Assembly: GCF_914271545.1 (NCBI RefSeq)
Contig: NZ_CAJZAH010000001.1
Span: forward strand, 682,001 to 746,000
DNA from: Cupriavidus respiraculi
GTDB lineage: Bacteria > Pseudomonadota > Gammaproteobacteria > Burkholderiales > Burkholderiaceae
Length of the DNA stretch: 64,000 nt
Reading direction: 5' to 3'
This document shows, piece after piece, positions 11,640-59,427 of the stretch; position 1 is the stretch's first letter, and the number at the start of each line of letters is the position of its first letter. Position numbers and translations under genes: made by a program. A model generated the notes under the pieces. That model made no database searches and was not told the DNA's origin. It saw nothing but the letters and a program-made list of their open reading frames with translations.

Positions 11640-11690
11640 TGCGTCGTTGTGGGTGTGTGTGTGGAGGGCGTGCGCACGGATGGCATTCGG

Positions 11691-41457: not shown

Positions 41458-41523
41458 TCCCTCTCTCCTCTATGCGTCGGTATCGTGTTCCGACTGGTGG
41501 TTGGCGGTGGCGAGCCCCGCTGG

Positions 41524-42878: not shown

Positions 42879-42902
42879 GGCCCGCCTCCGCACGCGCCGC
42901 GC

Positions 42903-44075: not shown

Positions 44076-44470
44076 GCTTCGCCTCCGGCCAGAAACACCA
44101 CCATGCCTTTGCCGTCGGTGACCCGCACCTGGGCCTGCACCGGCATCCCGATGCGCACCAGCGCCGGCGGCACGCCCTCTACCCGCGACATCAGCCTCAC
44201 ACCTTCCTCCAGATCGACCAACGCCACGTTGTAGTCGCTGCTGACCCCCGGCCTGCCGGCGATGACGCTGAACGAATACACGGTGCCCCTGCCGCTGGGC
44301 GCCACCCAGTCGAGCCGCGTCGCGCCGCAATGCGGACACACCGCGCGCGGAAAGAACACATGCGCGCGGCAACCGCCGCAGCGCTGGATCAGGAAACGGC
44401 CCTGGTCGAGATGGGCGAAATACTCGGCCTCCGGGCCGCTGGGCGCACGCGCGCCGGCATGGGTCTGCAT
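44072..44470 (-). CDS. DUF35 zinc-ribbon/OB-fold protein
   Basis: Partner protein of 132 residues: N-terminal helix, rubredoxin-like zinc ribbon (CGGCRAHVFFPRAVCPHCG, two CxxC pairs) and a C-terminal OB fold (GTVYSFSVIAGRP, VALVDLEEGVRLMSRVEG). DUF35 proteins bind acyl-CoA and form complexes with SCP2-thiolase-like enzymes, such as Ltp2 with the DUF35 part of ChsH2. The stop overlaps the thiolase start. ATG 44470 or 44485 are both possible. Confidence 0.9.
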   Translation of the reverse strand: MQTHAGARAPSGPEAEYFAHLDQGRFLIQRCGGCRAHVFFPRAVCPHCGATRLDWVAPSGRGTVYSFSVIAGRPGVSSDYNVALVDLEEGVRLMSRVEGVPPALVRIGMPVQAQVRVTDGKGMVVFLAGGEA

Positions 44471-44504
44471 GACCGCTCCTTGCATGCTGTCGGGAATGGC
44501 GCGC

Positions 44505-45848
44505 TCAGCGCACCGCCTGGTAGGTGGAAATCGGCCGCCGCTCCGCCACCAGCCTCTCCAGCAGCGGCGCGGGGGTCCACAGTTCGCCGTGCTGGCGGTG
44601 GAAGGCGCGGATGCGCTCCAGCACCCTGTCGAGGCCCACGGTGTCGGCGTGGAACATCGGGCCGCCGCGCGCGGCCGGAAAGCCGTAGCCGTTGACGTAG
44701 ATCAGGTCGATGTCGCCGCCGCGCCGGGCAATGCCCTCTTCGAGAATCCGCGCGCCTTCGTTGACCAGCGCGTAGATCGTGCGCTCGACGATCTCCTCGT
44801 CGGTGACGGGCGCACGCGCGATGCCGGACTGCGCCGCGCACGCTTCGATGATGCGCTCGACCTCCGGGTCGGGAATCGGCACCCGGCTCCCCGGCTCGTA
44901 GCGATAGAAGCCCGCGCCGGTCTTCTGGCCGAGTCGGCCGGACTCGCACAGGCGGTCGGCCACGCGGCAGTAGCGCAGGTGCGCCGGCCGCGTCGGCGCC
45001 TGGCGCTTGCGTGCGGCCCAGCTGATGTCCAGTCCCGCCAGGTCGCCCATGCGCAGCGGCCCCATCGCCATGCCAAAGCGCTCGAGCGCCTGATCCACCT
45101 GCTGCGGCGACGCGCCTTCCTCCAGCAGGAAGTGCGCCTCGCGCGTGTAGGGGCTGACCATGCGGTTGCCGACGAACCCATCGCAGACGCCCACCAGCAC
45201 CGCCACCTTGCCGACCTCGCGCGCGATACGCATGGACGTGCGGATTACCTCGGGCGCGGTGGCCACGCCGCGCACCACTTCCAGCAGCTTCATTACATGC
45301 GCGGGGCTGAAGAAGTGCAGGCCAAGCACGTCGGCCGGGCGCGAAGTCATTCGCGCGATGGCATCGATATCGAGTCGCGATGTATTGGAGGCCAGGATCG
45401 CGCCCGGCCTCGCGATGCGGTCCAGGCGCTCGAACACCGCGCGCTTGACCTCCATGTCCTCGAAGACGGCCTCGACGATCAGGTCGCTGTCGGCTAGCGC
45501 ATCGAGCGAGGTAGCGCCGCGGATGCGCCCGATGCGCGCCTCCATCTCGCCGGCATCGAGCTTGCCCTTGGCCACGGTGCCGGCGTAGTTGCGGCGTATG
45601 GTCTGCAGGCCGCGTTCCAGCGCCTGCTCCCCGGTCTCCACCAGCGTCACCGGATAGCCCGCGCTGGCGAACGTCATGGCGATGCCTGTGCCCATCGTGC
45701 CGGCGCCGACTACGCCGATTCGCCGGATGGCGCGGTCGGCGCCGCCCGGCAGGTCAGCCGCGCCGGCCGCCTCGCGCGCCGCGATCGCCAGATGGCGCTG
45801 CGCGTCCCCTGCGACCTGGCTTGCAATGTTGTTGTCCGCCCCCTGCAT
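44505..45848 (-). CDS. 3-hydroxyacyl-CoA dehydrogenase (FadB-like without crotonase domain)
   Basis: NAD-dependent dehydrogenase of 447 residues. After a 40-residue leader resembling the linker of FadB-type fusions comes the Rossmann domain (IGVVGAGTMGTGIAMTFASAGYPV), SNTSRLDIDAIA, the catalytic GLHFFSPAHVMKLLEVV (His) and two C-terminal HAD helical domains (CDGFVGNRM; YVNGYGFPAARGGPMFHAD). The N-terminal hydratase domain of FadB/FadJ/MFE is absent. ATG 45848 has GGAG upstream; ATG 45869 would overlap the biotin-carrier stop. It oxidises a 3-hydroxyacyl-CoA in the operon's pathway. Confidence 0.9.
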   Translation of the reverse strand: MQGADNNIASQVAGDAQRHLAIAAREAAGAADLPGGADRAIRRIGVVGAGTMGTGIAMTFASAGYPVTLVETGEQALERGLQTIRRNYAGTVAKGKLDAGEMEARIGRIRGATSLDALADSDLIVEAVFEDMEVKRAVFERLDRIARPGAILASNTSRLDIDAIARMTSRPADVLGLHFFSPAHVMKLLEVVRGVATAPEVIRTSMRIAREVGKVAVLVGVCDGFVGNRMVSPYTREAHFLLEEGASPQQVDQALERFGMAMGPLRMGDLAGLDISWAARKRQAPTRPAHLRYCRVADRLCESGRLGQKTGAGFYRYEPGSRVPIPDPEVERIIEACAAQSGIARAPVTDEEIVERTIYALVNEGARILEEGIARRGGDIDLIYVNGYGFPAARGGPMFHADTVGLDRVLERIRAFHRQHGELWTPAPLLERLVAERRPISTYQAVR

Positions 45849-45868
45849 GGCGCTCTCCACCGTCCGCA

Positions 45869-46081
45869 TCAGCGCAGCACGACGGCGGCCTGGCCCTCGG
45901 CCACGTCGTCGCCTTCGGCCACCAGCACCTGCGCCACCACGCCGTCGGCCTCGGCCTCGAGCGGAATCTCCATCTTCATGGACTCCACGGTGATCACCGC
46001 GGTGCCGGACGATACGGCATCGCCCGGCTTGACGTGGACCGCGACCACGCGGCCGGCGACTTGCGATTCGATGGAAGGCAA
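45869..46081 (-). CDS. biotin carboxyl carrier protein, minimal
   Basis: Seventy-residue single biotinyl domain. The biotinylation site is ESMKMEIP with Lys36; symmetric beta-hairpins at PGDAVSSGTAVI and AEGDDVAEGQAAVV are typical of the lipoyl/biotinyl fold. It lies 43 bases downstream of the carboxyltransferase and belongs to the same operon. No biotin carboxylase gene exists in the window, so carboxylation of the biotin must come from elsewhere or the system works as a decarboxylase. Confidence 0.9.
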   Translation of the reverse strand: MPSIESQVAGRVVAVHVKPGDAVSSGTAVITVESMKMEIPLEAEADGVVAQVLVAEGDDVAEGQAAVVLR

Positions 46082-46124
46082 CTTGGTCTCCTTTCAGTGC
46101 GGGGAAATTGGAAGGCGTGCGGTG

Positions 46125-47672
46125 TCACGGCCGGTAGCCGAACGCACCGCGGCTTGCCTGCCGCAGCGGCGCGGCGATGCGGACGAATTCGACAAGCAGC
46201 CGTCTCGTATCGGCCGGATCGATGATGTCCTCGACCACGAAGGCCTCGGCGCTGCGGAACGGCGAGGTCAGCGCGCGTACCCGCGCCTCGATCCGGTCCC
46301 GCGCCGCGGCGGGATCGGCGGCCGCCGCGATCTCGGCCTTGTAGGCGACTTCGAGCCCGCCCTCGACCGGCAGCGAGCCCCACTGCGCGGACGGCCACGC
46401 ATAGCGGAAATTGAAGCGGTCCGCGTTCTGGTGCCCGCCCCCCGCGACGCCGAATGCCTTGCGCAGGATCACCGAGCACCACGGCACCGTGGTCTGTGCG
46501 ATGGCGGTCAGCGCGCGCACACCGGCGCGCATCACGCCCTCCTGCTCGGCCTCCAGCCCGATACGAAAGCCCGGCACGTCGACCAGATTGACGACGGGCA
46601 GGCGGAACAGCTCGGCCAGGTCCACCATGCGCATGTACTTTTCGGCCGTCTGCCGGTCCCAGGCCCCGCCGTAGTGATAGGGGTCGCTCGCGATCAGCAC
46701 CACGGGCCAGCCGTCGATGCGCGCCAGGCCGGCCGCGATGGCCTTGCCCCAGTGCCGGCCGATCTCCATGAAGGAGCCGGTATCGACCAGCGTCTCCACG
46801 ATCGCGCGCACCTTGTAGACGCTGCGCGGATTGGCCGGAATCGCGCGGCGCAATGCGAGCTGGTCCGCCAGGGCATCGCGCTCGCCCTCGCTGCGCGGGG
46901 CCGGCTCGTGGATCGACGACGGCAGGTACGACAGGAAGCGGCGAGCGCGCGCGAAGCCCTCGGCCTCGCTGCCCACCTCGTCGTCCACCACGCCGTTGCG
47001 CGTATGGATATGGCTGCCGCCCAGCTCGTTCTTCGACAGCTCCTGCCCGGTGCGCGCCACCACCGGCGGTCCCGCGACAAAGAGCTGCGAGGTGTCGCGC
47101 ACCATCAGCGAGTAGTGGCTGGCGGCCACGCGTGCGGCGCCCATGCCGGCCACCGAGCCCAGGCCCATGCCGACCACCGGCACGGTGGCGAGGTTGCGGG
47201 CGATATAGGGCCAGGCCTTGAGCTTGGGCAGCAGCGTGTGGCCTTTGATCTCGATGTTCTTGACCGAGCCGCCGCCACCGGTGCCATCGACCAGGCGGAT
47301 GATCGGCATGCGCAGGTCGTGTGCCATCTGTTCGGCCACGATCAGCTTGTCGCCAACCGCGCCGTCGTTGGCACCGCCGCGCACGGTGAAGTCGTCCCCA
47401 ACCACCACCACCGGACGGCCGTCGATCTGCGCGCGCGCCATCAGGAAGTTCGATGGCGTGAAGTCGACCAGCTTGCCGTTCCCGTCGTACTCGCCGGTGC
47501 CGGCGAGGCCGCCGACTTCCACCGTGGAATCCGCATCCACCAGTTGCGCGATGCGCTCGCGCACCGGCAGCCGGCCCTGCTCGCGGTGCCTGCGTATCTT
47601 CTCCTCGCCGCCCATCCGCTGCGCCAGTGTCCTGCGCAAGGCGAGTTCGTCCAGCTCGTTCTGCCACGTCAT
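46125..47672 (-). CDS. acyl-CoA carboxylase carboxyltransferase subunit
   Basis: Carboxyltransferase of 515 residues (AccA3/AccD/PccB-type). N-half: KIRRHREQGRLPVRERIAQLVD, the oxyanion/CoA loops DGTGGGGSVK and LGSVAGMGAARVAASHY; C-half: VNLVDVPGFRIGLEAEQEGVMR, and AFGVAGGGH with oxyanion glycines. ATG 47672 follows GGAAGA with 7 bases. It lies next to a 70-residue biotin carrier. Substrate (propionyl-, methylcrotonyl-, geranyl-CoA or another acyl-CoA) is not determined by these motifs. Confidence 0.9.
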   Translation of the reverse strand: MTWQNELDELALRRTLAQRMGGEEKIRRHREQGRLPVRERIAQLVDADSTVEVGGLAGTGEYDGNGKLVDFTPSNFLMARAQIDGRPVVVVGDDFTVRGGANDGAVGDKLIVAEQMAHDLRMPIIRLVDGTGGGGSVKNIEIKGHTLLPKLKAWPYIARNLATVPVVGMGLGSVAGMGAARVAASHYSLMVRDTSQLFVAGPPVVARTGQELSKNELGGSHIHTRNGVVDDEVGSEAEGFARARRFLSYLPSSIHEPAPRSEGERDALADQLALRRAIPANPRSVYKVRAIVETLVDTGSFMEIGRHWGKAIAAGLARIDGWPVVLIASDPYHYGGAWDRQTAEKYMRMVDLAELFRLPVVNLVDVPGFRIGLEAEQEGVMRAGVRALTAIAQTTVPWCSVILRKAFGVAGGGHQNADRFNFRYAWPSAQWGSLPVEGGLEVAYKAEIAAAADPAAARDRIEARVRALTSPFRSAEAFVVEDIIDPADTRRLLVEFVRIAAPLRQASRGAFGYRP

Positions 47673-47743
47673 GCTTTTGTCTTCCATCGTCGGTGTGTCA
47701 TGCCGCCCCGCGGGCGCGGCCGCTGTGCGCAGGGCGTGCCGCT

Positions 47744-48733
47744 TCAGTCCAGCCGGATGCCGGAGCGCTTGATGATCTCGGCGTACTGCGCCGTTTCGGC
47801 CTTGATCTTCGCGGCGAACGGCTGCGGACCGAGCAGCAGGATGTTTCCCTGCTGGCGCAGCAGCGCCTTGGTGGCCGGGTCCTCGCCGGCGGCGAGGATG
47901 GCTTCGTGCAATGCCTTGACGGTGGCGGGCGGCGTTTTCGCCGGCACGAAGGCGCCGACCCAGAACGAGATGTCGTAGCCGGCATAGCCCTGCTCGGCCA
48001 CGCTCGGGACATTGGGCAGGTCCGGCCAGCGCTGCGCGGAGGACACCGCGATGGCGCGCAGCTTGCCCGCCTTGATCTGCGGCATGGCGGCGGGGTTGTC
48101 GAAGGCCGCGTCGACTTCCTTGCCGAGCAGGCCGATCTGCGCGGCGGCCGAGCCCTTGTAGGGCACGTGGACCATCTTCACGCCGGCCATGGTGTTGAGC
48201 AGCTCGAAGCTGAGCTGGGTCAGGTTGCCGGCGCCGGCCGAGCCATAGGACAGGCCGTCCGGCTTGCTTCTGGCCAGCTTCATCAGGTCGGCCACCGAGT
48301 TCACCGCGCGCGTCTTCTCGCTCTCCGGGTTGGTCGTCAGGATGAACGGCACCGAGACGATCAGCGACACCGGCGCGAAATCGCGCTGCACGTCGTAGCG
48401 CATTTGCTGGTACAGCAGCGGATTGACCGTGATGGTGCTGGAGTTGCTGATCAGCACCGTATGGCCATCTGGCTCCGCATTGGCAAGCGCCGCCGCGGCG
48501 ATCATGCCGTTGGAGCCCGGCCGGTTCTCGACGACCACCGGCTGGCCCAGCTTGCCGTTCAGGTGCGTGGCGACGATGCGCGCCACCAGGTCGATAGAGC
48601 TGCCGGGAGCAAAGCCGACCAGGAACTTCACTGGCCGGGCGGGATAGGTATCGGCGTGGGCGGCGTTGCCGGCAAAGGCAAGCGCGACGGCCGCGCCGGC
48701 GGCCGCGGCACGGAAAGCGTGAGTCAGGCGCAT
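47744..48733 (-). CDS. Bug-family periplasmic receptor
   Basis: TctC-type receptor of 329 residues. Signal peptide (AAAAGAAVALAFAGNAAHA); Bug motifs LVGFAPGSSIDLVARIVA and LSYGSAGAGNLTQLSFELL. It is the first gene of the left operon, directly behind the promoter and operator at 48793-48854, and the IclR gene is divergent from it. It probably binds the starting compound of the pathway. Confidence 0.92.
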   Translation of the reverse strand: MRLTHAFRAAAAGAAVALAFAGNAAHADTYPARPVKFLVGFAPGSSIDLVARIVATHLNGKLGQPVVVENRPGSNGMIAAAALANAEPDGHTVLISNSSTITVNPLLYQQMRYDVQRDFAPVSLIVSVPFILTTNPESEKTRAVNSVADLMKLARSKPDGLSYGSAGAGNLTQLSFELLNTMAGVKMVHVPYKGSAAAQIGLLGKEVDAAFDNPAAMPQIKAGKLRAIAVSSAQRWPDLPNVPSVAEQGYAGYDISFWVGAFVPAKTPPATVKALHEAILAAGEDPATKALLRQQGNILLLGPQPFAAKIKAETAQYAEIIKRSGIRLD

Positions 48734-48792: not shown

Positions 48793-48818
48793 GTTCTATC
48801 GACCAGAACTTTTGTTCT
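48793..48818. promoter_or_regulatory. three-half-site operator, copy 1
   Basis: GTTCT (48793-48797), seven bases, AGAAC (48805-48809), four bases, GTTCT (48814-48818): an inverted repeat plus a direct repeat. The same arrangement occurs at 57700-57725. It starts about 7 bases past the -10 of the left operon promoter, a repressor position. IclR regulators such as PcaU and PobR are known to bind three repeats arranged this way. Confidence 0.75.
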
Positions 48819-48825
48819 TTCACGT

Positions 48826-48854
48826 AGAATACGTAGGCACCCAAATTCGGTCAA
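48826..48854 (-). promoter_or_regulatory. sigma-70 promoter of the left catabolic operon
   Basis: TTGACC (48854-48849) and TATTCT (48831-48826) on the minus strand with a 17-base spacer. The transcription start should fall near 48819, at the edge of the operator. Confidence 0.75.
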
Positions 48855-49032
48855 GGAGAATTCGCGCGGCGCGGTACTTGCACCTTCTTCCCCCGGCACT
48901 CTCGGCGCTTGCACGTCGCAGGAACCGCGGCGGAACGAGCGTTCCGGACAGGCACGCCGGGGCCCCGCGAACGCCAGACGTTAGAATTCAGGCCGAACCC
49001 GCCCACGGCGGCGAATCCCCTCACCATTGCCT

Positions 49033-49803
49033 ATGCCCCAGATCACCACCGAACTTCCCGCTGCCCAGACCGACGGCGTTGCCGCGGTCGACCGTGCGCT
49101 GGCGATTGCCACCGCGCTCGCGCAGGCCGGCACGCCGCTGTCGCTGGCCGACCTCGCGCGGCTCACCGGCATGTACAAGAGCACGTTGCTGCGGCTCCTG
49201 GCGTCGCTGGAGCGCAGCGGTCTCGTGGTGCACCGCTCGGACAAGCGCTATGCGCTCGGGCCGCTGGCCTTCCTGTTCGGCCGCACGTTCGAGACCAGCC
49301 TGGGGCTGAAGGAAGCGATCCAGCCAGTGATGGAATGGCTGGTGACACAGGGCACGGAGAGCCCGTCGTTTCACGTGCAGCACGGCACGGACACGCGCAT
49401 GTGCCTGTTCCGGATCGATTCGTCGCATTCGACGCTGGACCGCGTGCGGGTGGGCGACGTCTTGCCGCTGCACAAGGGCGCGCCCGGCAAGGTCTTGCGC
49501 GCGTATGAAAAAGGCGGTCCCACCGAGGGCGACGCCCAGCTCGTGTTCACCTCGTTCGGCGAGCGCGATCCACTGTGCGGGGCCATCTCGAGCCCGGTGT
49601 TCGGCCCGGCCAACACGCTGCTGGGGGCGCTGTCGCTGTCCGGTCCGCTGGAGCGCTTTTCCGAACTGGCCGTGCAGCGCATGACCGGTCTGCTGCTGAC
49701 GGCCGCGCAGCGCGCCACGGCATCGCTGGGCGGGCAATGGCCTGAACTCGCCGCCGCACCCGAGAAGCCCAGGACGAAAGGGAAGGCCCGCCAGGCGGGC
49801 TAG
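49033..49803 (+). CDS. IclR-family transcriptional regulator
   Basis: IclR regulator of 256 residues: winged helix at about 15-75 (LAIATALAQAGTPLSLADLARLTGMYKSTLLRLLASL), then effector domain (SFHVQHGTDTRMCLFRID; LPLHKGAPGKVLRAYE; FGPANTLLGALSLSG). ATG 49033 chosen; an upstream TTG at 49027 is possible. It lies between the two operons that share the three-half-site operator, divergent from one and convergent with the other, so it is the prime candidate regulator of both. Confidence 0.92.
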   Translation: MPQITTELPAAQTDGVAAVDRALAIATALAQAGTPLSLADLARLTGMYKSTLLRLLASLERSGLVVHRSDKRYALGPLAFLFGRTFETSLGLKEAIQPVMEWLVTQGTESPSFHVQHGTDTRMCLFRIDSSHSTLDRVRVGDVLPLHKGAPGKVLRAYEKGGPTEGDAQLVFTSFGERDPLCGAISSPVFGPANTLLGALSLSGPLERFSELAVQRMTGLLLTAAQRATASLGGQWPELAAAPEKPRTKGKARQAG

Positions 49804-49806
49804 GAC

Positions 49807-50619
49807 TCAGTCGACGGGCATCTCGTGCAGGCATGCGACCTGGATGGGCAATCCCGGCAGCACCGGGTATTTGCGCAGCACCAGCGGGTCATGCCCCGGC
49901 ACCACGTGCCCAGGGGAATCGGCGTGTTCCACGCATCTGCGGTGGCCGTCCAGCATCTCGGCGACGTTGTAGACGATGGGGAAGGGATTGCCCTCGTCCA
50001 TGTTGGCGTAGTAGTGGCTGGCGTCCGACGCCAGCACGACCCAGCCGCGCCGCGTATGCACCCGCACCGCCTGCAGGCCCTTCGTATGGCCGCCGATATG
50101 GACGAGTTCGACGCCGGGACATAGCGCCTCGTCGCCCCGGTGAAACCGCACGCGATCCGCATAGACGCGCCGCACGAGGTGCACCACATCCTCCACCGAG
50201 TAGGCATGGCGCATCACGCCATGACACATGCAGCGGCCGGTGGCGTACTCCAACTCCGCGTCCTGCACGTGGAAGACCGCGGACGGCAGCTTGTCGATAT
50301 TGCCCGCGTGGTCGTAATGCAGATGGGTCAGCACCACGTCCCGGATCGAGGCCGGTTCCACGTCGAGCAGGCGCAGCGAGTCGATGGGGCAGCAGTCCAG
50401 CGTGCGCCTGCGCTGCCGCGCGGCCGCTTCGTTGAAGCCGGTATCGACCAGGATATTGCGGTCAGCGCCCTTCAGCAGCCACACGAAGAAATCCATCGGC
50501 ATCGGCCCGTCGTGCTCGTCCCGCTGCAGGAAGTTCGCCGTGCGGGTCCTGTCCATCGACGCATAGCGCAGCGCGAACACCTCATAGGTGGGAATGGCGT
50601 CGGTATCGTCGGCGCGCAT
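49807..50619 (-). CDS. N-acyl-homoserine-lactonase-like metallo-beta-lactamase fold hydrolase
   Basis: Metallo-hydrolase of 270 residues. The zinc motif is THLHYDHAGN (HxHxDH), followed by His in HIGGHTKG, Asp in LASDASHYYAN and His in VVPGHDP, the set used by AHL lactonases (AiiA type) and related lactonases. In this operon it more likely opens a lactone or hydrolyses a thioester of the catabolic pathway than quenches signals (inference). AGGAGG lies just before ATG 50619. Last gene of the livKHMGF operon; ends 3 bases from the IclR stop. Confidence 0.88.
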   Translation of the reverse strand: MRADDTDAIPTYEVFALRYASMDRTRTANFLQRDEHDGPMPMDFFVWLLKGADRNILVDTGFNEAAARQRRRTLDCCPIDSLRLLDVEPASIRDVVLTHLHYDHAGNIDKLPSAVFHVQDAELEYATGRCMCHGVMRHAYSVEDVVHLVRRVYADRVRFHRGDEALCPGVELVHIGGHTKGLQAVRVHTRRGWVVLASDASHYYANMDEGNPFPIVYNVAEMLDGHRRCVEHADSPGHVVPGHDPLVLRKYPVLPGLPIQVACLHEMPVD

Positions 50620-50633
50620 GGTGCCTCCTGCTG

Positions 50634-51518
50634 TCAGGTCTGCCCTTCGAAGACAAGGCTGATCGCCGGCGCGTACTTGTCGCCGTGGCCGGCGGCAATG
50701 GCCGCATCGAAGCAGGCGATCAGGTTTTTGGCGCCGGTGGCGTTCACCCCCACCTGGTCGCCCAGCGCGGCCGCATACATCAGGTCCTTGCGGGCATAGG
50801 TCACCGGAAAGGCGCGCTCGGGAAAGTCCAGCGGCGCGATGGCTTTCATGCCGTGGTTGCGCAGCGCGAAGCTGTCGGCGGATCCCACCGACAGGGCCGC
50901 GAACAGCCGCTGCGGATCCACCCCGGCCCGGGCGCCGATGGCGCGCGCCTCGGCCAGCGCCAGCACGGTTTCGTACAGCACCATGTTGTTCAGGATCTTC
51001 ACCACCTGGCCAGCGCCCACGCCGCCGGCATGGATGACGTCCGCGGCGAACATGCGGATCAGCGGCTCGATCCGGGCGAACACCTCGTCCTCGGCGCCCA
51101 CCGGTACCGCCAGCGTGCCGGCCTCGGCGGCGGCGCGCGTGCGCATGACCGGCGCATCGGCAAAGCGCACACCGCGCTCGGCCAGCGCCGCGGCCACCTT
51201 CTTTGCTGTGTCCCTGGGCGAGGTGCTCAGGTCCACGACCACCTGTCCCGCGCGGCTGTGCTCCAGCAGTCCGCCGGCGCCCAGCACCACGCTTTCCACG
51301 ACCTCGCCCGAGGGCAGCGACAGAAAGATGACATCCGCTTGCGCCGCAATCTCGGCCAGCGTGGCCTCGCGCACACCGTGCGCGGCGAGCCTGTGCAGCG
51401 GCTCCGGATCGCGGTCGCACGCGCTGACACGGGCACCGCTCTTGCTGGCGAGATGGCGGCACATCGGCTCGCCCATCACGCCGACGCCGATAAAGCCGAT
51501 CGAGTCGATCGTAGACAT
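50634..51518 (-). CDS. 3-hydroxyisobutyrate dehydrogenase-like / tartronate semialdehyde reductase-like oxidoreductase
   Basis: Beta-hydroxyacid dehydrogenase of 294 residues. Rossmann motif IGFIGVGVMGEPMCRHL, substrate-binding DAPVMRTRAAAEAGTLAVPVGA (variant of DAPVSGG), the catalytic Lys in GAGQVVKILNNM, and the C-terminal KDLMYA. The variant loop with TRAAAEA suggests a substrate differing from classical hydroxyisobutyrate. Placed between the aldehyde dehydrogenase and the lactonase-like genes of the same operon. Confidence 0.9.
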   Translation of the reverse strand: MSTIDSIGFIGVGVMGEPMCRHLASKSGARVSACDRDPEPLHRLAAHGVREATLAEIAAQADVIFLSLPSGEVVESVVLGAGGLLEHSRAGQVVVDLSTSPRDTAKKVAAALAERGVRFADAPVMRTRAAAEAGTLAVPVGAEDEVFARIEPLIRMFAADVIHAGGVGAGQVVKILNNMVLYETVLALAEARAIGARAGVDPQRLFAALSVGSADSFALRNHGMKAIAPLDFPERAFPVTYARKDLMYAAALGDQVGVNATGAKNLIACFDAAIAAGHGDKYAPAISLVFEGQT

Positions 51519-51565
51519 GAAGATTTTCCTGGGTTGATTCGTTGCTGGGGTGGCGGCGCGCAGGC

Positions 51566-53056
51566 TCAGCCCGCCGCGGGAGACGACGGCATGTTGGCCG
51601 GGTTCATGCTCCAGTAGATGCCCTTGCTCTGCTGGTACAGCCGCACGCCATTGACGCCCTTCTCCCGCCCGATGCCGCTTTCCTTGAAGCCGCCGAACGG
51701 CGTGGCGATCGACAGTTGCTTGTAGGTGTTGATCCAGACCAGTCCGGTCTCCACCGCGCGCGCCACGCGCCAGGCGCGCTGGTAGTTGCCGGTCCAGATG
51801 CCCGACGCCAGGCCGAACACGGTACCGTTGGCCTGCGCGATCACGTCCGCCTCGTCGTCGAACGGCAGCACGCACAGCACGGGCCCGAAGATCTCCTGCT
51901 GCACCGCGGTGGCGCGCGGGTCCAGGCCGCCGATCACCGTAGGCAGATAGAAGGCGCCGCGCGCCAGTTCCGGCGCCGTGGGCGGGCAACCGCCCGCCAG
52001 CACCTGACCGCCCTCCCGCCGCGCGCCGTCGACGAAGCCGGCAACGCGGTCGCGATGCGCGAAGCCGGCGAGCGGGCCGATGCGCGAACCGCCATCGTGC
52101 GGCATGCCGACGCGGATGGCATTGGCCTTCTCCACCAGCAGCGCCACGGCCCTGTCGTAGATGCCGCGCTGCAGGAACAGCCGCGAGCCGGCCACGCACG
52201 ATTGCCCGCTGCCCTCGAAGATGCCGTCGACAACGCCATCGATGGCGGCCTCGACGTTGGCGTCGTCGAAGAGGATGTGCGGGGATTTGCCGCCCAGTTC
52301 GAGCGCCACCGGAATCAGGCGCTGGGCGGCGATGGCCGCGATGCTGCGCCCGGTGGCCGTGCCGCCGGTGAACGACACCATGCGCACGTCGGGATGGTTG
52401 ACCAGCGCGCTGCCCGTGATGCGGCCATCGCCGGTCACCACGTTGAGCAGGCCCCTGGGCAGCCCGGCTTCCAGCGCCACCTCGCCGAGCAGCAGCGCGG
52501 CCGACGGCGTGACCTCCGAGGGCTTGAGAACCACGGCGTTGCCGGCGGCCAGTGCCGGCGCGACCTTCTGGGCTTCCATCGTCATCGGCGAATTCCACGG
52601 CGTGATGGCGACCACCACGCCATAGGGTTCGTACGCCGTCATCGACAGATAGTCGCCGCGCGAGGGCGTGACTTCGGCACCCAGCGTCTCGCAGACGGCG
52701 GCGTAGTAGCGGAACGTGGCGGCGGCCGACGCGGCCTGCGCCTTGCACTCGGACCACACCTTGCCGTTCTCCAGCATCTGCAGCCGGGCGAACTCGTCGG
52801 CGCGCGCCTCCATGCCGTCGGCGATGCGGTTCAGGAGGCGGGCGCGCAGGTGCGGCAGCATGTCCCGCCACGCCGGGTCGGCGGCGGCCGCGCGCGCCGA
52901 CGCCACGGCGGCATCGACGTGGGCGGCGCTCCCGCTCGACACCCTGAAATTGACCTCGCCCGTGGCCGGGTTGATCGAGTCGAAGGTCGTGTCCGGCGTG
53001 ACGACGTGCTCGCCACCGATCAACATGCCCTTGATTTGCTGCCCTGACTGCTGCAT
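51566..53056 (-). CDS. aldehyde dehydrogenase (NAD(P)+-dependent)
   Basis: ALDH superfamily enzyme of 496 residues. Visible: TPWNSPMTMEAQKVAPALAAGN and KPSEVTP (cofactor), SFTGGTATGRSI, the catalytic Glu in LELGGKSPHILF and catalytic Cys in GSGQSCVAGSRLF, then EIFGPVLCVLPF and the C-terminal PFGGFKESGIGREKG. It lies 47 bases downstream of livF in the operon. The substrate is presumably the aldehyde formed from the imported compound. Confidence 0.92.
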   Translation of the reverse strand: MQQSGQQIKGMLIGGEHVVTPDTTFDSINPATGEVNFRVSSGSAAHVDAAVASARAAAADPAWRDMLPHLRARLLNRIADGMEARADEFARLQMLENGKVWSECKAQAASAAATFRYYAAVCETLGAEVTPSRGDYLSMTAYEPYGVVVAITPWNSPMTMEAQKVAPALAAGNAVVLKPSEVTPSAALLLGEVALEAGLPRGLLNVVTGDGRITGSALVNHPDVRMVSFTGGTATGRSIAAIAAQRLIPVALELGGKSPHILFDDANVEAAIDGVVDGIFEGSGQSCVAGSRLFLQRGIYDRAVALLVEKANAIRVGMPHDGGSRIGPLAGFAHRDRVAGFVDGARREGGQVLAGGCPPTAPELARGAFYLPTVIGGLDPRATAVQQEIFGPVLCVLPFDDEADVIAQANGTVFGLASGIWTGNYQRAWRVARAVETGLVWINTYKQLSIATPFGGFKESGIGREKGVNGVRLYQQSKGIYWSMNPANMPSSPAAG

Positions 53057-53102
53057 TCCGTATGACTCCGTGGATGACGATGGCGGCGCGTTGCGTGCCG
53101 CC

Positions 53103-53816
53103 TCAAATACCAAGATAGGCCTTCTGCACGAAGGGATCGGCCAGCAGTTCCGCGCCGCCGCCGGCACGCACCACGGCACCCTGCTCCAGCACATAGGCAT
53201 GCTTTGCGAGCTTCAGCGCGAGGCGCGCGTTCTGCTCGACCAGGATCACCGATACGCCGGCCTCCCGGTTGATGCGCTCGATGGTGTCGGCGATCTCGGC
53301 CACCACCTTGGGCGCGATGCCCAGCGACGGCTCGTCGAGCATCAGGATTCGCGGCCGCGACATCATCGCCCGGCCGATGGCCACCATCTGCTGCTCGCCC
53401 CCGGACAGCGAACCGGCCAGTTGCCGGCGTCGCTCCGCCACGCGCGGGAACAGCGCATAGACCTGCTCCAGCGCGGCCCTGCGCTCGTCCGCGCGCCTGA
53501 CGGTGTGCGCCCCGACCTCCAGGTTCTCCAGCACCGTCATGCGCGGAAACAGGCGCCGGCCCTCCGGCGACAGCGCCATCCCCATCGCCACCCGCTGCGC
53601 GGCGCTGCTGCGCTGGATCGGCTCGCCGTCCAGCAGCAGCGTGCCGGCCGACAGGGTCTTGAGCCCCATCAGCGCCTTCAGCGTGGTGCTCTTGCCGGCA
53701 CCATTGGCGCCCACCAGCGCCACGATCTCGCCGGCACGCACCGTGAACGAGACATCGCGCACGGCCGCGAGCGGCCCGTAGTGGACGGCCATGTTGGTGG
53801 CCTCAAGCGTGCGCAT
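53103..53816 (-). CDS. livF: branched-chain amino-acid-type ABC transporter ATPase LivF
   Basis: ATPase of 237 residues. Walker A GANGAGKST, signature LSGGEQQM, Walker B ILMLDEPSLG and the switch His region. Size and sequence (PRMTVLENLEVGAH, VGANGAGKSTTLKALMGL) identify the LivF branch. ATG 53816 overlaps the livG stop by 14 bases; ATG 53846 would extend it needlessly. Partner of LivG, LivH and LivM. Confidence 0.93.
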   Translation of the reverse strand: MRTLEATNMAVHYGPLAAVRDVSFTVRAGEIVALVGANGAGKSTTLKALMGLKTLSAGTLLLDGEPIQRSSAAQRVAMGMALSPEGRRLFPRMTVLENLEVGAHTVRRADERRAALEQVYALFPRVAERRRQLAGSLSGGEQQMVAIGRAMMSRPRILMLDEPSLGIAPKVVAEIADTIERINREAGVSVILVEQNARLALKLAKHAYVLEQGAVVRAGGGAELLADPFVQKAYLGI

Positions 53817-54582
53817 GGTCGGGCGCTCCCAGATAGGCTTCGACAACGGCGGGGTTGGCCCTGACCTGCGCGGGCGTGCCTTCGGCGATCTTCTGCCCCT
53901 GCACCAGCACCACGATGCGTTCGCAGGTGCCCATCACCAGCGCCATGTGGTGCTCGACGAACAGCAGCGACAGCTTGTGCTCGGCGCGCAGCGTGCTCAG
54001 CAGCCGCCCGAAGTCCGCGCATTCCTCTGGATTCAGTCCGGCCGCGGGTTCGTCCAGCAGCAGCAGCCGCGGGCGCGTGGCCAGCCCGATGGCGACACCG
54101 AGCCGCTTCTGGTGGCCATAGGCCAGACCGCCTGCGAGCGTGTGGCGATGGGCGGACAGGCCGGTGATGTCCAGTACATGGTCCACGTCGCGGTCGACGG
54201 CCCGCATGGCGGCGCGGAAGCGGGCGCGCCCGGCGATCTGCGTCCATACGGAGACGCCCAGCCGCGAGATGGCACCGCGAAACACGTTCTCCGCGACGGT
54301 GGCACGGGGATACACGGCCGCCGACTGGAACGTGCGCGCCAACCCGAGCCGCACCACCCGGCTCGATGCCATGTGCGCGATCTCGTGTCCGTCGAACGAC
54401 ACGCTGCCCGCGTCAGGCCGCAGCGAGCCGCTGATCAGATTGAAGGCCGTGCTCTTGCCCGCGCCATTGGGGCCGATCAGCCCGACGATCTCGCCCGCGC
54501 GCACATCGAAGCTCAGGTCCCGCACCGCGGCCAGGCCGCCGAAGGACTTCGAGAGGCCGCGTACCTGCAGCAGCGCGCTCAT
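53803..54582 (-). CDS. livG: branched-chain amino-acid-type ABC transporter ATPase LivG
   Basis: ATPase of 259 residues. Walker A GPNGAGKST, the LivG-type FNLISGSLRPDAG, RTFQSAAVYPRATVAENV, a signature-like segment (LAYGHQKRLGVAIGLA) in which the usual LSYGQQR is altered to LAYGHQK, and Walker B LLLLDEPAAGLNPEE. ATG 54582 overlaps the livM stop by 4 bases. Confidence 0.93.
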   Translation of the reverse strand: MSALLQVRGLSKSFGGLAAVRDLSFDVRAGEIVGLIGPNGAGKSTAFNLISGSLRPDAGSVSFDGHEIAHMASSRVVRLGLARTFQSAAVYPRATVAENVFRGAISRLGVSVWTQIAGRARFRAAMRAVDRDVDHVLDITGLSAHRHTLAGGLAYGHQKRLGVAIGLATRPRLLLLDEPAAGLNPEECADFGRLLSTLRAEHKLSLLFVEHHMALVMGTCERIVVLVQGQKIAEGTPAQVRANPAVVEAYLGAPDHAHA

Positions 54583-55586
54583 GCCCGGCCTCCCGCGCGG
54601 CGCGGCAGGCGAAACCCCGCGAGGCCCTGCGGCAGGAACCGCAGGATCGCGATCAACGTAATGCCGTAGAGGATGTTCTGCGTCTGCACCGCGCCGCGGA
54701 AGAGCTCGGGCAGCGGCGTCATGACCAGCGCGCCGACCAGCGGCCCGAACACCGACGTGCGGCCGCCGACCACCAGCATGATGATGGCCGCGACCGACAC
54801 ATGGGTGGAGAACGACTCGGGCGAGACGAAGCCCACGTAGTGCGCGAGGCAGGCTCCGCCCAGCCCCGCGAAGGCGCTGCCCAGGGTGAAGGCGAACAGC
54901 CGGTTGTCCTGCACGCTCAGCCCACTGGCTTCCGCCAGCTGCGCGTTGTCGCCCACCGCGTCCAGCATATGGCCCTTGGGCGTTCGGAACAGCACGGCCA
55001 GGAAGACCACCGTGGCGACGGCCAGCACCGCGGCGAGGCAGTAGAACGACTGCCGGGTGTCGAACGCCATGCCCAGCATCCGCGCCGGCGCGATGTTCGA
55101 GATGCCATTGGCGCCACCGGTGACCGCGCCGCCTTCCAGCAGCGCCAGCCGGAACAGTTCCCCGAATGCGAACGTGATCAGCACGAAATACACCCCCCGC
55201 AGGCGCAGGATCGCGGCGCCGAGCACGAAGGCCACGGCAGCGGCCAGCGCCGTTCCCAGCACCGCGGCCAGCACGAACGGCACCCCGAACTTGCCCGCGA
55301 GCACCGAGCCATAGGCTCCGAGGCCCACGAAGGCGGCATGGCAGAAGGACAGCTGGCCGGTGCGGCTGAGGATCGCCAGCCCGCTGACGATCACCACGTT
55401 CAGGCAGATCAGCACCGCGAGGTGCAGGTGGAACGAACTGCCGCTGATCAGCGGCAGTGCAAGCACGGCCAGCGCGGCCGCCGCGAGCGGCCACGCCCGG
55501 CGCAGCGCTAACGCCGTGGTGGCGGTGTCACGGTGGCCCGGCGCGGCATCGCGCGTCAGAGTATCCATGGTGTCCTGTTTGTCCAT
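54579..55586 (-). CDS. livM: ABC transporter permease LivM
   Basis: Permease of 335 residues with about nine membrane segments. LivM signatures: GLAILSRTGQLSFCHAAFVGLGAYGS and FRTPKGHMLDAVGDNAQLAEASGLSV. The last third has LFAFTLGSAFAGLGGACLAHY. ATG 55586 lies one base after the livH stop. Confidence 0.92.
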   Translation of the reverse strand: MDKQDTMDTLTRDAAPGHRDTATTALALRRAWPLAAAALAVLALPLISGSSFHLHLAVLICLNVVIVSGLAILSRTGQLSFCHAAFVGLGAYGSVLAGKFGVPFVLAAVLGTALAAAVAFVLGAAILRLRGVYFVLITFAFGELFRLALLEGGAVTGGANGISNIAPARMLGMAFDTRQSFYCLAAVLAVATVVFLAVLFRTPKGHMLDAVGDNAQLAEASGLSVQDNRLFAFTLGSAFAGLGGACLAHYVGFVSPESFSTHVSVAAIIMLVVGGRTSVFGPLVGALVMTPLPELFRGAVQTQNILYGITLIAILRFLPQGLAGFRLPRRAGGRA

Positions 55587-55587
55587 G

Positions 55588-56457
55588 TCATTGCTCCTGG
55601 GTGCCGAGCAGGCCGGACGGCCGGAATACCAGCATCACCATCACGAGCACGAAGATCAGCATGTCGGAGAGGCTGCTGCCAAGGAAGGTGCCGCCCAGGC
55701 TTTCCGCGATGCCCAGCAGCAGGCTCGCCAGCGCCGCCCCCGGAATGCTGCCCAGGCCGCCGAGGATAACTACGATGAAGGCCTTCAGCGCGGGCGTGGA
55801 ACCGATGAAGGGAGAGACCGAGAAGAGCGGCGCCATCAGGGCGCCCGCGGTAGCGGCAAGCCCCGCGCCGAGCGCGAAGCCGAGCGGATAGATGACGCGC
55901 GCATTGATGCCCTGCGCCGTGGCGATCTCCGTGTCCTGCACCACCGCGCGCAGCGCGCGGCCGGTGCGCGAATGCATCAGGAACAGGTAGAGCGCGACGA
56001 GCACCAGCGCGGATGCGCCCACCACGTACAGGCGCGACATCGGCATCGCGACCGGCCCCAGGCTCACCAGCCCCTGGGCCACGGCGGGCATCGACTGCGG
56101 GTCCGGCCCGAACAGCATCAACGCGCCGTTCTGCAGGATCATCGCCAGGCCGATGGTGGCGATCATGCCGTTCAGCTCGTCGCCGCGGAACGGCTTGAGC
56201 ACCACCAGTTCGCACAGCCAGCCCAGCACGACGGCCAGCGCGAAGGTGGCCAGCACGGCCGGAAAGAACGACAGGTTCCACTGGGTCACGCACAGGAACG
56301 CGGCGAACGCCCCGAGCATGTAGAACTCGCCATGGGCGAAGTTCACGATGCGCATGACGCCGAACACCAGCGTGAAGCCGATCGCCATCAGCAGGTACAG
56401 CAGGCCGACGATCAGGCCATTGGTCAGCGTCTGCCCGAGCAGGAAGTACAGGTCCAC
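55588..56457 (-). CDS. livH: ABC transporter permease LivH
   Basis: Permease of 289 residues with about eight membrane segments. LivH signatures: TNGLIVGLLYLLMAIGFTLVFGVMRIVNFAHGEFYMLGAF, and MHSRTGRALRAVVQDTEIATAQGIN. The start is a GTG at 56457 in GTG-GAC-CTG-TAC, the position of the family start; an ATG far upstream would add a non-conserved leader. Confidence 0.92.
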   Translation of the reverse strand: MDLYFLLGQTLTNGLIVGLLYLLMAIGFTLVFGVMRIVNFAHGEFYMLGAFAAFLCVTQWNLSFFPAVLATFALAVVLGWLCELVVLKPFRGDELNGMIATIGLAMILQNGALMLFGPDPQSMPAVAQGLVSLGPVAMPMSRLYVVGASALVLVALYLFLMHSRTGRALRAVVQDTEIATAQGINARVIYPLGFALGAGLAATAGALMAPLFSVSPFIGSTPALKAFIVVILGGLGSIPGAALASLLLGIAESLGGTFLGSSLSDMLIFVLVMVMLVFRPSGLLGTQEQ

Positions 56458-56492
56458 GGTGGAGCCCCCGAGTGGTCGCGGCGTCGTCGCGG

Positions 56493-57659
56493 TTACTGGC
56501 AGGCGGTCAGCGTGCAGCGCGCGCGGATGACTTCCTGCCCGCCCTTGACTTCCGCGATATAGAACGGCGCGCTGATCTGGTGGTCCGCGCCATACACGGC
56601 CTTGCCCGTCCACGTCAGCGTGCCCAGGATGCCCTGGTAGTGGTTGATCCCTTCCAGCGCCGTGCGGACCTTGGCGGTGTCGGTGGTGCCGGCCGTGGTG
56701 ATCGCCTGGAACAGCATGCGGCTGCCGTCGTAGAACGCCGGGCTGAAGCCGTTCATCCGCTTCTTGTACTTGGCCTGGTAGCGCTCGCTGTACGCCTTGA
56801 CCGCGGCATTGGCCGGGTCCACGGTGGTATTGACCAGCATGCCCTCGGTCACGGCATTGCCCGCGACGCTGACGATCTCCGGCGTGGACGGTCCGCCGCT
56901 GCGGATGATCAGTCCCTTGAAGCCGAGCTCGCGGGCCTGCTTGACGATCAGGCCGGCGGTGCCGGGCGCGTTGCCATCCAGCTCGATGGCGTCGATGCCC
57001 TTGGCCATCATGCGGGTCAGCAGGGGCACCATGTCCACGCGCTCGCGCTCGAAGAACTCCTTGGCCGCCAACTGCGAGCCGGCCTTGGCGTAGGCTTTCT
57101 CCAGATCGGCGGCGATCTGCTGGCCGGTCTCGTCATTGGGGAACAGCGCCCCGACCTTCTTGACGCCGCGCGTCTTGACGACCCAGTCGATCTGCGGCTG
57201 CGACGTCTCCATCGTCGTCAGGTTCGGGCGGAACGTATGGGGCTTGTCCGCGCCGATGACCTTGGGGGTGAAGCCCAGCGTCATCATGATCACGCCGTTC
57301 TTCTCGGTGATGGGCGACACGGCCAGCGCGGCGGCGGATCCCACCGGCCCGATCAGGTATTTGACCTTGTCCTCGAACACCAGGCGGTTGACCGCGGTCA
57401 CGGCTTCGTTGGCCTGGTACTTGTCGTCGTAGGCGACGACCTGAACCTTGTACTTCTTGCCGCCGACATCCAGCCCGCCCTTGGCGTTGACATCGTCCGC
57501 CGCGAGTTCCGCGGCGTAGAGCATGCCCTGCCCCCAGGCCGCGCCCGCGCCGGACAGCGTCACCACCGCGCCGATCTTCAGCACTTCCTGGGCATGGACA
57601 GGACCGGCCAACGCCAACAAGGCGGCGGCGCCGGCGGCTACTGCGGTTGTGTTCAGCAT
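56493..57659 (-). CDS. livK: ABC transporter substrate-binding protein, LivK-like
   Basis: Periplasmic type I binding protein of 388 residues. Signal peptide AVAAGAAALLALAGPVHAQ, then the Leu/Ile/Val-binding pattern (VLKIGAVVTLSGAGAAWGQGMLYAAELAADDVNAKGG; GPVGSAAALAVSPITEKNGV). GGAGGA lies before the ATG. Head gene of the right operon, behind the promoter and operator at 57700-57763. The companion genes suggest an acyl or aromatic acid rather than an amino acid (inference). Confidence 0.92.
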   Translation of the reverse strand: MLNTTAVAAGAAALLALAGPVHAQEVLKIGAVVTLSGAGAAWGQGMLYAAELAADDVNAKGGLDVGGKKYKVQVVAYDDKYQANEAVTAVNRLVFEDKVKYLIGPVGSAAALAVSPITEKNGVIMMTLGFTPKVIGADKPHTFRPNLTTMETSQPQIDWVVKTRGVKKVGALFPNDETGQQIAADLEKAYAKAGSQLAAKEFFERERVDMVPLLTRMMAKGIDAIELDGNAPGTAGLIVKQARELGFKGLIIRSGGPSTPEIVSVAGNAVTEGMLVNTTVDPANAAVKAYSERYQAKYKKRMNGFSPAFYDGSRMLFQAITTAGTTDTAKVRTALEGINHYQGILGTLTWTGKAVYGADHQISAPFYIAEVKGGQEVIRARCTLTACQ

Positions 57660-57699
57660 GGTGTCTCCTCCATCGTCGAAGCGGGTGGCTCCCGCTATC

Positions 57700-57725
57700 G
57701 TTCTTTTCAGCAGAACGCTTGTTCT
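57700..57725. promoter_or_regulatory. three-half-site operator, copy 2
   Basis: GTTCT (57700-57704), seven bases, AGAAC (57712-57716), four bases, GTTCT (57721-57725): same half-sites and same spacing as at 48793-48818. It starts 9 bases past the -10 of the liv promoter. Confidence 0.75.
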
Positions 57726-57734
57726 GTTTTTCGG

Positions 57735-57763
57735 ATTATGTGAGGCGGGATGGGGGATGTCAA
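57735..57763 (-). promoter_or_regulatory. sigma-70 promoter of the liv operon
   Basis: TTGACA (57763-57758) and CATAAT (57740-57735) on the minus strand with a 17-base spacer: near-consensus and so probably strong when not repressed. Confidence 0.8.
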
Positions 57764-57844: not shown

Positions 57845-57870
57845 AAAAAAAGGCCCATCGAAATGGGCCT
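57845..57870 (-). terminator. rho-independent terminator of tctBA
   Basis: On the minus strand: stem AGGCCCAT, loop TTCG, stem ATGGGCCT, then seven T (57851-57845). Perfect 8-base stem with an extra-stable UUCG tetraloop; 55 bases after the tctA stop. Confidence 0.93.
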
Positions 57871-57924
57871 TGATGCAAATGCCGGATCGTGGATCCGGCG
57901 GAGGTGCCGTCGTGCGCGGCCTGC

Positions 57925-59427
57925 CTATTCTTCCTGGAACGCTTCTTCCCGCTTGCTCTTGATCGCCGGCAGGGCGACCACGGCCACCAGCGCCGCCGCG
58001 GCGACCAGCAGGCCCAGCGACAGCGGACGGCTGGCGAACACGGTGAAGTCGCCACGCGAGAGCAGCAGCGTGCGGCGGAAGTTCTCTTCCATCATCGGTC
58101 CCAGCACGAAGCCCAGCAGCAGCGGCGCCGGTTCGCAACGCAGCTTGTGGAAGATGTAGCCGATCGCACCGCAGCCCGCGGCCATGAAGACATCGAACAC
58201 GGTGTTGTTCACCGAGTAGACGCCGATGCTGCAGAACACCAGGATGGCCGGATAGAGGAAGCGGTACGGCACGGTGAGCAGCTTCACCCAGATGCCGATC
58301 AGCGGCAGGTTCAGCACCACGAGCATCAGGTTGCCAATCCACATCGAGGCGATCAGGCCCCAGAACAGCGCGGGGTTGCTGGTCATGACCTGCGGGCCGG
58401 GCTGGATGTTGTGGATCGTCATCGCGCCGACCATCAGCGCCATCACCGCATTGGGCGGGATGCCCAGCGTCAGCAGCGGAATGAACGACGTCTGCGATGC
58501 AGCGTTGTTGGCGGACTCGGGACCGGCCACGCCTTCGATGGCGCCCTTGCCGAATTCCTGCGGATACCTGGAGGTCTTCTTCTCCAGCGAGTACGCCGCG
58601 AACGACGACAGCGATGCGCCGCCGCCCGGCAGCACGCCCAGCGCCGAGCCGAGCACCGTGCCGCGCAGCACGGCGGGAATCATGCGCTTGAAGTCTTCCT
58701 TGTTGGGAAAGAGACCGGAAATCTTGTCCGTGAAGGTTTCCCGGTGTTCCTTCTGCTCCAGGTTCGCGATGATCTCGGCGAAGCCGAACAGGCCCATGGC
58801 CAGCGCCGTGATGCTGATGCCATCGGTCAGTTCCGGCACGTCGAACGAGTAGCGGGCCGCGCCCGAATTCACGTCGGTGCCGACCAGTCCGAGCAGCAGT
58901 CCGAGCACGATCATCGAGACGGCCTTGACCAGCGAGCCGGACGCCAGCACGACGGCACCGATCAGACCCAGCACCATCAGCGAGAAGTACTCCGCCGGGC
59001 CGAACTTGAACGCCAGTTCGGACAGCGGCGTGGCGAACGCGGCGAGGATCAGCGTGGCGACACAGCCGGCGAAGAACGAGCCCAGGCCCGCGGTGGCCAG
59101 CGCCACGCCCGCGCGGCCGCGCCTTGCCATCTGGTAGCCGTCCAGCGTGGTGACCACGGCGGAGGACTCGCCCGGCAGGTTCACCAGAATCGCCGTGGTG
59201 GAGCCGCCGTACTGCGCACCGTAGTAGATGCCGGCCAGCATGATCAGCGCCGCAATCGGCGGCAGCGTGTAGGTGATCGGCAGCAACATGGCGATCGTGG
59301 CCAGCGGGCCGAGGCCCGGCAGCACGCCGATCAGCGTGCCCAGCACACAGCCAAGGAAGGCGTAGCCGAGGTTCTGCAGCGATAGCGCCGTGGAGAACCC
59401 CAGCGCGAGGTGGTCGAACAATTCCAT
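57925..59427 (-). CDS. tctA: tripartite tricarboxylate transporter large membrane subunit TctA
   Basis: Membrane protein of 500 residues, about 10-12 segments, TctA family: LGCVLGTLIGVLPGLGPLATIAMLLPITY, GIYYGAQYGGSTTAILVNLPGESSAVVTTLDGYQMAR, GVLPGGGASLSSFAAYSLEKK and FGKGAIEGVAGPESANNA are the conserved family blocks. It follows tctB by 13 bases. No own TctC gene adjoins; the receptors of the window, mainly the tctC-like at 7712, could feed it. Confidence 0.95.
   Translation of the reverse strand: MELFDHLALGFSTALSLQNLGYAFLGCVLGTLIGVLPGLGPLATIAMLLPITYTLPPIAALIMLAGIYYGAQYGGSTTAILVNLPGESSAVVTTLDGYQMARRGRAGVALATAGLGSFFAGCVATLILAAFATPLSELAFKFGPAEYFSLMVLGLIGAVVLASGSLVKAVSMIVLGLLLGLVGTDVNSGAARYSFDVPELTDGISITALAMGLFGFAEIIANLEQKEHRETFTDKISGLFPNKEDFKRMIPAVLRGTVLGSALGVLPGGGASLSSFAAYSLEKKTSRYPQEFGKGAIEGVAGPESANNAASQTSFIPLLTLGIPPNAVMALMVGAMTIHNIQPGPQVMTSNPALFWGLIASMWIGNLMLVVLNLPLIGIWVKLLTVPYRFLYPAILVFCSIGVYSVNNTVFDVFMAAGCGAIGYIFHKLRCEPAPLLLGFVLGPMMEENFRRTLLLSRGDFTVFASRPLSLGLLVAAAALVAVVALPAIKSKREEAFQEE

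Follow-up and report, generated by a model that had tools for sequence, protein, structure and literature searches.

A comparative survey of the IclR family (Suvorova and Gelfand 2021, PMC8222616) predicts three-box sites in 32 orthologous groups of regulators and, in 94, tandem sites at a distance of 18-22 nt. In its three-box operators, one pair of boxes lies in the group 1 frame (GTT-11-AAC) and an overlapping pair in the group 2 frame (AAC-N3-4-GTT). Operators of like arrangement occur twice in a 64,000-nucleotide stretch of Cupriavidus respiraculi (NZ_CAJZAH010000001.1, positions 682,001 to 746,000), hereafter the window, where they stand at the promoters of two gene sets with an iclR gene between them. 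We consider it probable (about 0.88) that this IclR protein is a local repressor of both operons, which together would let the cell take up and degrade a single carbon source. Each gene set is presumed to be one operon on the basis of gene order and short gaps.

Operator architecture

The pattern GTTCT-N7-AGAAC-N4-GTTCT has two exact copies in the window, at 48793-48818 and 57700-57725, and none in 100 dinucleotide-preserving shuffles. The two copies agree in every one of the 15 box bases and in the two spacings, but in only 5 of the 11 spacer bases, so their likeness is confined to the boxes. In each copy the direct GTTCT repeats start 21 bases apart. Both copies are accompanied on the minus strand by a sigma-70-like promoter facing leftwards into its operon, TTGACC-17-TATTCT at 48826-48854, with like geometry at other sites, and TTGACA-17-CATAAT (11/12) at 57735-57763. 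The gap from the -10 to the three-box site is 7 bases on the left and 9 on the right, and each promoter is the sole promoter-like site in the 501 bases scanned around it. A preliminary description of the locus had reported these operator coordinates, the identical boxes and spacings with differing spacers, the 21-base repeat distance, and promoters with 17-base spacers ending 7 or 9 bases before the operators; the window search and the promoter scan bear out all of this.

The left operator (48793-48830, minus strand) comprises GTTCT (48793-48797), AGAAC (48805-48809), GTTCT (48814-48818) and a fourth box, AGAAT (48826-48830), which was found as part of a one-mismatch trio on the opposite strand and overlaps the -10. 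Its two palindromes, GTTCT-N7-AGAAC and GTTCT-N7-AGAAT, have centres 21 nt apart, within the 18-22 nt given for tandem IclR palindromes in PMC8222616. In the right operator (57700-57737, minus strand) the three exact boxes are joined by a poor fourth, GGATT at 57733-57737 (2/5), and the second palindrome has 3 mismatches. Among 23 aligned sites from the window and its relatives the fourth box is variable, with a mean of 2.5/5 matches compared with 4.3-4.5 for boxes 1-3, and reaches at least 4/5 in 9 sites. The operator is better taken as an array of three to four boxes, of which the fourth is frequent, not constant.

The boxes alternate, with one group 1 and one group 2 spacing, N7 and N4, which are exact in the window and are also the spacing peaks among relatives (see below). 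The arrangement is that of the IclR three-box operators of PMC8222616, and at the left site also that of the tandem ones, a clear but ordinary case. It departs from the group 1 consensus given there in the fifth base of the half-site, which is T (GTTCT) and not C, and in spacer letters that lack RYW3RY. Compared by hand, the operators match neither of the literal consensuses of that survey (GKTYCRYW3-4RYGRAMC and TGRAACAN1-2TGTTYCA), being one position off per half-site (T for C at box position 5, or the complement) as well as in the spacer letters. They are likewise unlike the motif shown there for PcaU of Acinetobacter, TTTGTTCGATWATCGMACAMA. The orthologous group of the window regulator may already be among the 181 groups of PMC8222616; a literature search, with subscription papers largely outside its coverage, gave no recognisable paper on this regulog.

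The IclR protein

The iclR gene (49033-49803, plus strand; 256 aa) is transcribed away from the left operon and towards the right one. Both domains of its product score above the Pfam cut-offs: the winged-helix DNA-binding domain HTH_IclR (PF09339) with 43.7 bits against a curated cut-off of 22, and the C-terminal effector domain IclR_C (PF01614) with 41.3 bits against 24, the best stretch of the latter being residues 89-160 only. Membership of the PcaR/PcaU/PobR subfamily (TIGR02431) was ruled out, since the protein scores 68.3 bits where the cut-off is 284.75. The resemblance to PcaU/PobR-type regulators that had been pointed out for this locus is therefore one of three-box architecture and not of subfamily. 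The best NCBIfam match, to BhcR (NF045644), reaches 73.2 bits and stays under the equivalog cut-off of 350. TtgV, an efflux-pump regulator of the IclR family with solved structures (PDB 2xrn/2xro), gives a weak match (E 0.0014) of low similarity.

Autoregulation of the window iclR is not claimed. The palindrome GGAAC-N4-GTTCC at 48932-48945, 88-101 bases upstream of iclR, is 2 mismatches from the inner palindrome of the operator and not above chance, a rough hand estimate giving about 0.1 such matches expected in that intergenic region. In relatives with sites upstream of iclR (L040, L049, L061, L064) autoregulation is plausible from the position of those sites.

Conservation of the operator

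In the 5,594,073 bases of the C. respiraculi genome (G000) the exact pattern occurs twice, its reversed control not at all, and the inner palindrome AGAAC-N4-GTTCT is exact nowhere but at the same two places. The preliminary description had called for this genome-wide search, and the pattern is not scattered. With up to 3 mismatches there are 46 matches compared with 60 for reversed controls, which is background; specificity thus depends on near-exact sites.

A scan of the sequence collection with the IclR protein gave 14 loci, 11 of them orthologues at 63-82% identity (L039-L049, including Noviherbaspirillum, L039; Rhizobacter, L044; and Cupriavidus sp. AU9028, L049) and three remote, at no more than 38% (L050-L052), which were excluded as orthologues. 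Whole-genome searches added G030 (77%) and G015 (65%) from the genus Cupriavidus and four genomes of the order Burkholderiales at 52-61%; in an order-wide search 5 of 399 genomes, including G000, had matches at E<=1e-60. The genes around iclR are to a large extent shared among the loci. Homologues of the left operon adjoin iclR in L039, L041, L042, L047 and L048. Aldehyde and beta-hydroxyacid dehydrogenase genes, with or without a Liv transporter, lie within a few kb of iclR in L040, L041, L043, L045, L046, L049, L053/L054, L062 and L063, and L064 has the aldehyde dehydrogenase alone of the regulon genes. L041 joins the two sets in one regulon, since one iclR there is flanked by left-operon genes on one side and by the two dehydrogenases on the other. 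In L039 iclR is followed by broken aldehyde dehydrogenase remnants (11056-11648), and an operator-like site (14/20) stands at 11891; the same Noviherbaspirillum genome carries another copy of iclR as well as, in L040, an aldehyde dehydrogenase match of full length.

Scoring of all four boxes (20 letters) gave 29 sites of at least 14 in 19 sequences, compared with 16 in total over five rounds of single-letter shuffling (about 3 per round). When box pairs with at most 1 mismatch were counted in 26 regions near regulon genes of the C. respiraculi genome and its relatives (10,712 bases), GTTCT/AGAAC peaked at N7 (15 pairs), AGAAC/GTTCT at N4 (19) and the direct repeat GTTCT/GTTCT at N16 (16), each against 0.2 in shuffles; no other spacing from 0 to 20 exceeded 3. 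For the 23-site alignment 8 of the 29 sites were omitted and two at 13/20, from L042 and L048, were added. The omitted sites lie inside the carboxyltransferase gene (L041 7865, L047 8559, L048 7714), in a shifted overlapping register (L039 9706, L046 10840, L064 9088), beside the broken gene (L039 11891) or at window position 7144.

Two models were built from this alignment. R2, trained on the 21 sites of relatives with the two window sites left out, finds only the two window places in G000, on both strands and at E up to 10 (150 of the 163 first-look candidates were scored); on the better strand their E-values are 1.3e-4 and 7.9e-4. R1 was trained on the full set of 23 sites. At E<=0.3 it points to 23 distinct places across 11 genomes, in several of which 150 of 163-481 candidates were scored; 18 of the places are training sites and 5 are new. 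Four of the new places precede homologues of the window operons. L091 and L094 stand before a hydrolase-Liv set, at a distance of about 400 bases from the hydrolase, and a short reading frame has its start codon immediately behind the site; L093 lies upstream of the aldehyde dehydrogenase-HIBADH (beta-hydroxyacid dehydrogenase) pair, and L092 upstream of tctC, carboxyltransferase, biotin carboxylase and dehydrogenase genes. Three of these four (L092, L093, L094) are on contigs other than that of iclR, in two relatives with unlinked homologous operons. The fifth new place, L089 (3541-3578, G358), also off the iclR contig, is a strong R1 match before class II aldolase, 2-hydroxyacid dehydrogenase and tctC genes, the first two named from their translations; this set may extend the regulon in that lineage.

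Within the genus, R2 gives matches at E<0.05 for 5 of the 60 genomes (at most 112 candidates scored per genome under stricter filters; three genomes less than 90% complete), and these are exactly the genomes with an IclR orthologue of at least 65% identity, G000, G015, G030, G444 and G451. The informative half of this comparison is the absence from the other 55, since four of the five positive genomes supplied training sites. The two-operon regulon put forward in the preliminary description is well supported by the uniqueness of the sites, their conservation beside orthologous iclR genes and operons, the held-out model, the unlinked homologous operons and the co-occurrence in the genus.

Promoter geometry and proposed mechanism

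Among 28 sites of the window and its relatives, 12 have a sigma-70-like promoter (9/12 or better, the target direction being set by hand, one per site) whose -10 ends -5 to +9 from the first base of the operator. Elsewhere in the flanks of the same sites there are 3 promoters in the other 255 nt, equivalent to 0.18 expected per 15-nt bin. A -10 that abuts or overlaps the operator points to repression. In the left operon and in L039 the outer promoter-side box, here the fourth, falls on a TATTCT -10; the same holds for L043, L045 and L049, where that box counts as the first as aligned because the array is nearly symmetric.

We propose that IclR binds the alternating GTTCT and AGAAC boxes, with spacings N7-N4(-N7), and that it probably does so with two dimers on the same face of the helix. 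The array would span the -10 hexamer and the likely start of transcription and reach about +26. A repressor bound there would obstruct RNA polymerase at both promoters, and a substrate or intermediate of the pathway would release it. More tentatively, and in our judgement rather doubtfully, the site could be a four-box array in which the promoter-proximal half-site is the -10 itself (TATTCT/AGAATA), with a repressor tetramer and RNA polymerase competing for the same bases, and the regulator might alternate between the two dimer pairings, group 1 and group 2, at sites of three and four boxes.

If the assignment is right, a catabolic gene set of Cupriavidus and other Burkholderiales gains a probable repressor, an operator of 38 bp and a regulon of two operons, and the substrate of the pathway becomes searchable through whatever derepresses the regulon. 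The locus would also be a compact and well-conserved case for testing the published idea of two alternative IclR dimer pairings on three-box sites.

Alternative explanations

Several observations weigh against local repression of both operons by this IclR. The locus L044, with a 73% identical IclR, has no site of at least 14/20 and no regulon gene in 20.7 kb, and L061 has a 14/20 site but no regulon gene in 12.9 kb beyond a partial tctC. Scores are low at L042 and L048 (13/20), at L041b and L062b (12/20) and upstream of iclR in L045 and L046 (11/20). The 26 regions behind the spacing peaks were picked by hand after the four-box scan, one of them (L063b) including a hydrolase gene, and the training sites were picked partly by consensus. 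No promoter falls in the expected bin at 16 of the 28 sites, although three of these have one further downstream (+12, +24, +36), and the bin itself was picked after a first inspection of the sites. Finally, two genomes of the genus without the orthologue give weak R2 matches (E 0.094 and 0.098).

The IclR family contains both activators and repressors, and PobR is known as an activator. The same IclR might thus bind both operators and activate, and the likeness of the architecture to PcaU/PobR sites would suit such a role. We regard it as unlikely, for in both window promoters and at the 12 sites mentioned above the operators are at or downstream of the -10, where recruitment of polymerase would hardly be possible, and both window promoters have a good -35. 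Ownership of the sites by another regulator, whether a paralogue of IclR or some unrelated factor like LexA (in Bacillus the LexA box is CGAAC-N4-GTTCG), is less probable still. G000 has 18 IclR-like matches, and paralogues seem to share the half-site: one of the weak genus matches (L103 1500-1540; G013:C2:150987) is a variant array whose middle spacing is N3, and it precedes the gene of an IclR paralogue of 35% identity by about 150 bp; in the control locus L037, a 14/20 site starts 103 bp ahead of the iclR match. But the sites track the orthologue of the window IclR in the same 5 of 60 genomes; 27 paralogous iclR loci (99,475 bases) hold just 2 four-box sites of at least 14/20, of which one lies 1.4 kb away from its gene; and the only two sites in G000 are both at operons flanking this iclR. 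Chance, or recent duplication of one promoter region, would be compatible with there being just two copies in the genome, but it was rejected as extremely improbable given the shuffles, the conservation in other genera and spacers that agree only in part where the boxes agree fully.

Upstream of the G013 paralogue there is also a separate exact GTTCT-N7-AGAAC. Here the half-site is common and the spacing altered.

Gene content of the two operons

The gene families suggest that a hydroxylated or lactone-type acid is taken up, hydrolysed, oxidised to an acid, activated with CoA, carboxylated and cleaved thiolytically. The left operon (40480-48733, minus strand) begins with a TctC-type solute-binding protein (47744-48733; Pfam), followed by an acyl-CoA carboxylase carboxyltransferase subunit (46125-47672; profile searches, start chosen by hand) and a small candidate biotin carboxyl carrier protein (45869-46081; TTG start chosen by hand), which we take to be such from its ESMKME motif. 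Next are a 3-hydroxyacyl-CoA dehydrogenase (44505-45869; profile searches), in which the N-terminal enoyl-CoA hydratase part of its relatives is absent, a ChsH2-like zinc-ribbon/OB-fold protein (44072-44485; profile search), a thiolase-like protein (42903-44075; profile searches, start chosen by hand) and two CoA-transferase subunits (41524-42893, as 42192-42893 and 41524-42195; profile search). The last gene encodes a second TctC-type solute-binding protein (40480-41457; profile search). Between 44505 and 46125 the window is without the biotin carboxylase gene and the hydratase part found at this place in L039, L041 and L047; L042 likewise is without biotin carboxylase here. A biotin carboxylase, 69% identical, is encoded elsewhere in the genome (G000:C2:1484738-1486072), and the best enoyl-CoA hydratase matches in the genome reach only 47-48%.

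Upstream of the right operon, an intrinsic-terminator-like hairpin (57850-57871, minus strand) separates the right promoter from a minus-strand ORF (57925-59427) that is TctA-like as read from the sequence. The right operon (49807-57659, minus strand) begins with a LivK-like solute-binding protein (56493-57659; NCBIfam profile search) and a LivH, LivM, LivG and LivF-like ABC transporter (53103-56457), of which LivM and LivF were identified by profile and LivH and LivG named from position and sequence; all four are matched in relatives. An aldehyde dehydrogenase (51566-53056; profile search, matched in relatives, start chosen by hand) and a beta-hydroxyacid dehydrogenase of the HIBADH/2-hydroxy-3-oxopropionate reductase type, under the family cut-offs (50634-51518), precede the last gene, for a metallo-beta-lactamase-fold hydrolase (49807-50619; Pfam) that is AHL-lactonase-like but under the NCBIfam cut-offs. 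In L043, L046, L062/L091, L063 and L094 an alpha/beta-hydrolase, named from its translation, stands ahead of livK, and L062 has both hydrolases. The lactonase-like metallo-hydrolase of the window and the alpha/beta-hydrolase of the relatives suggest that one hydrolase has been swapped for another.

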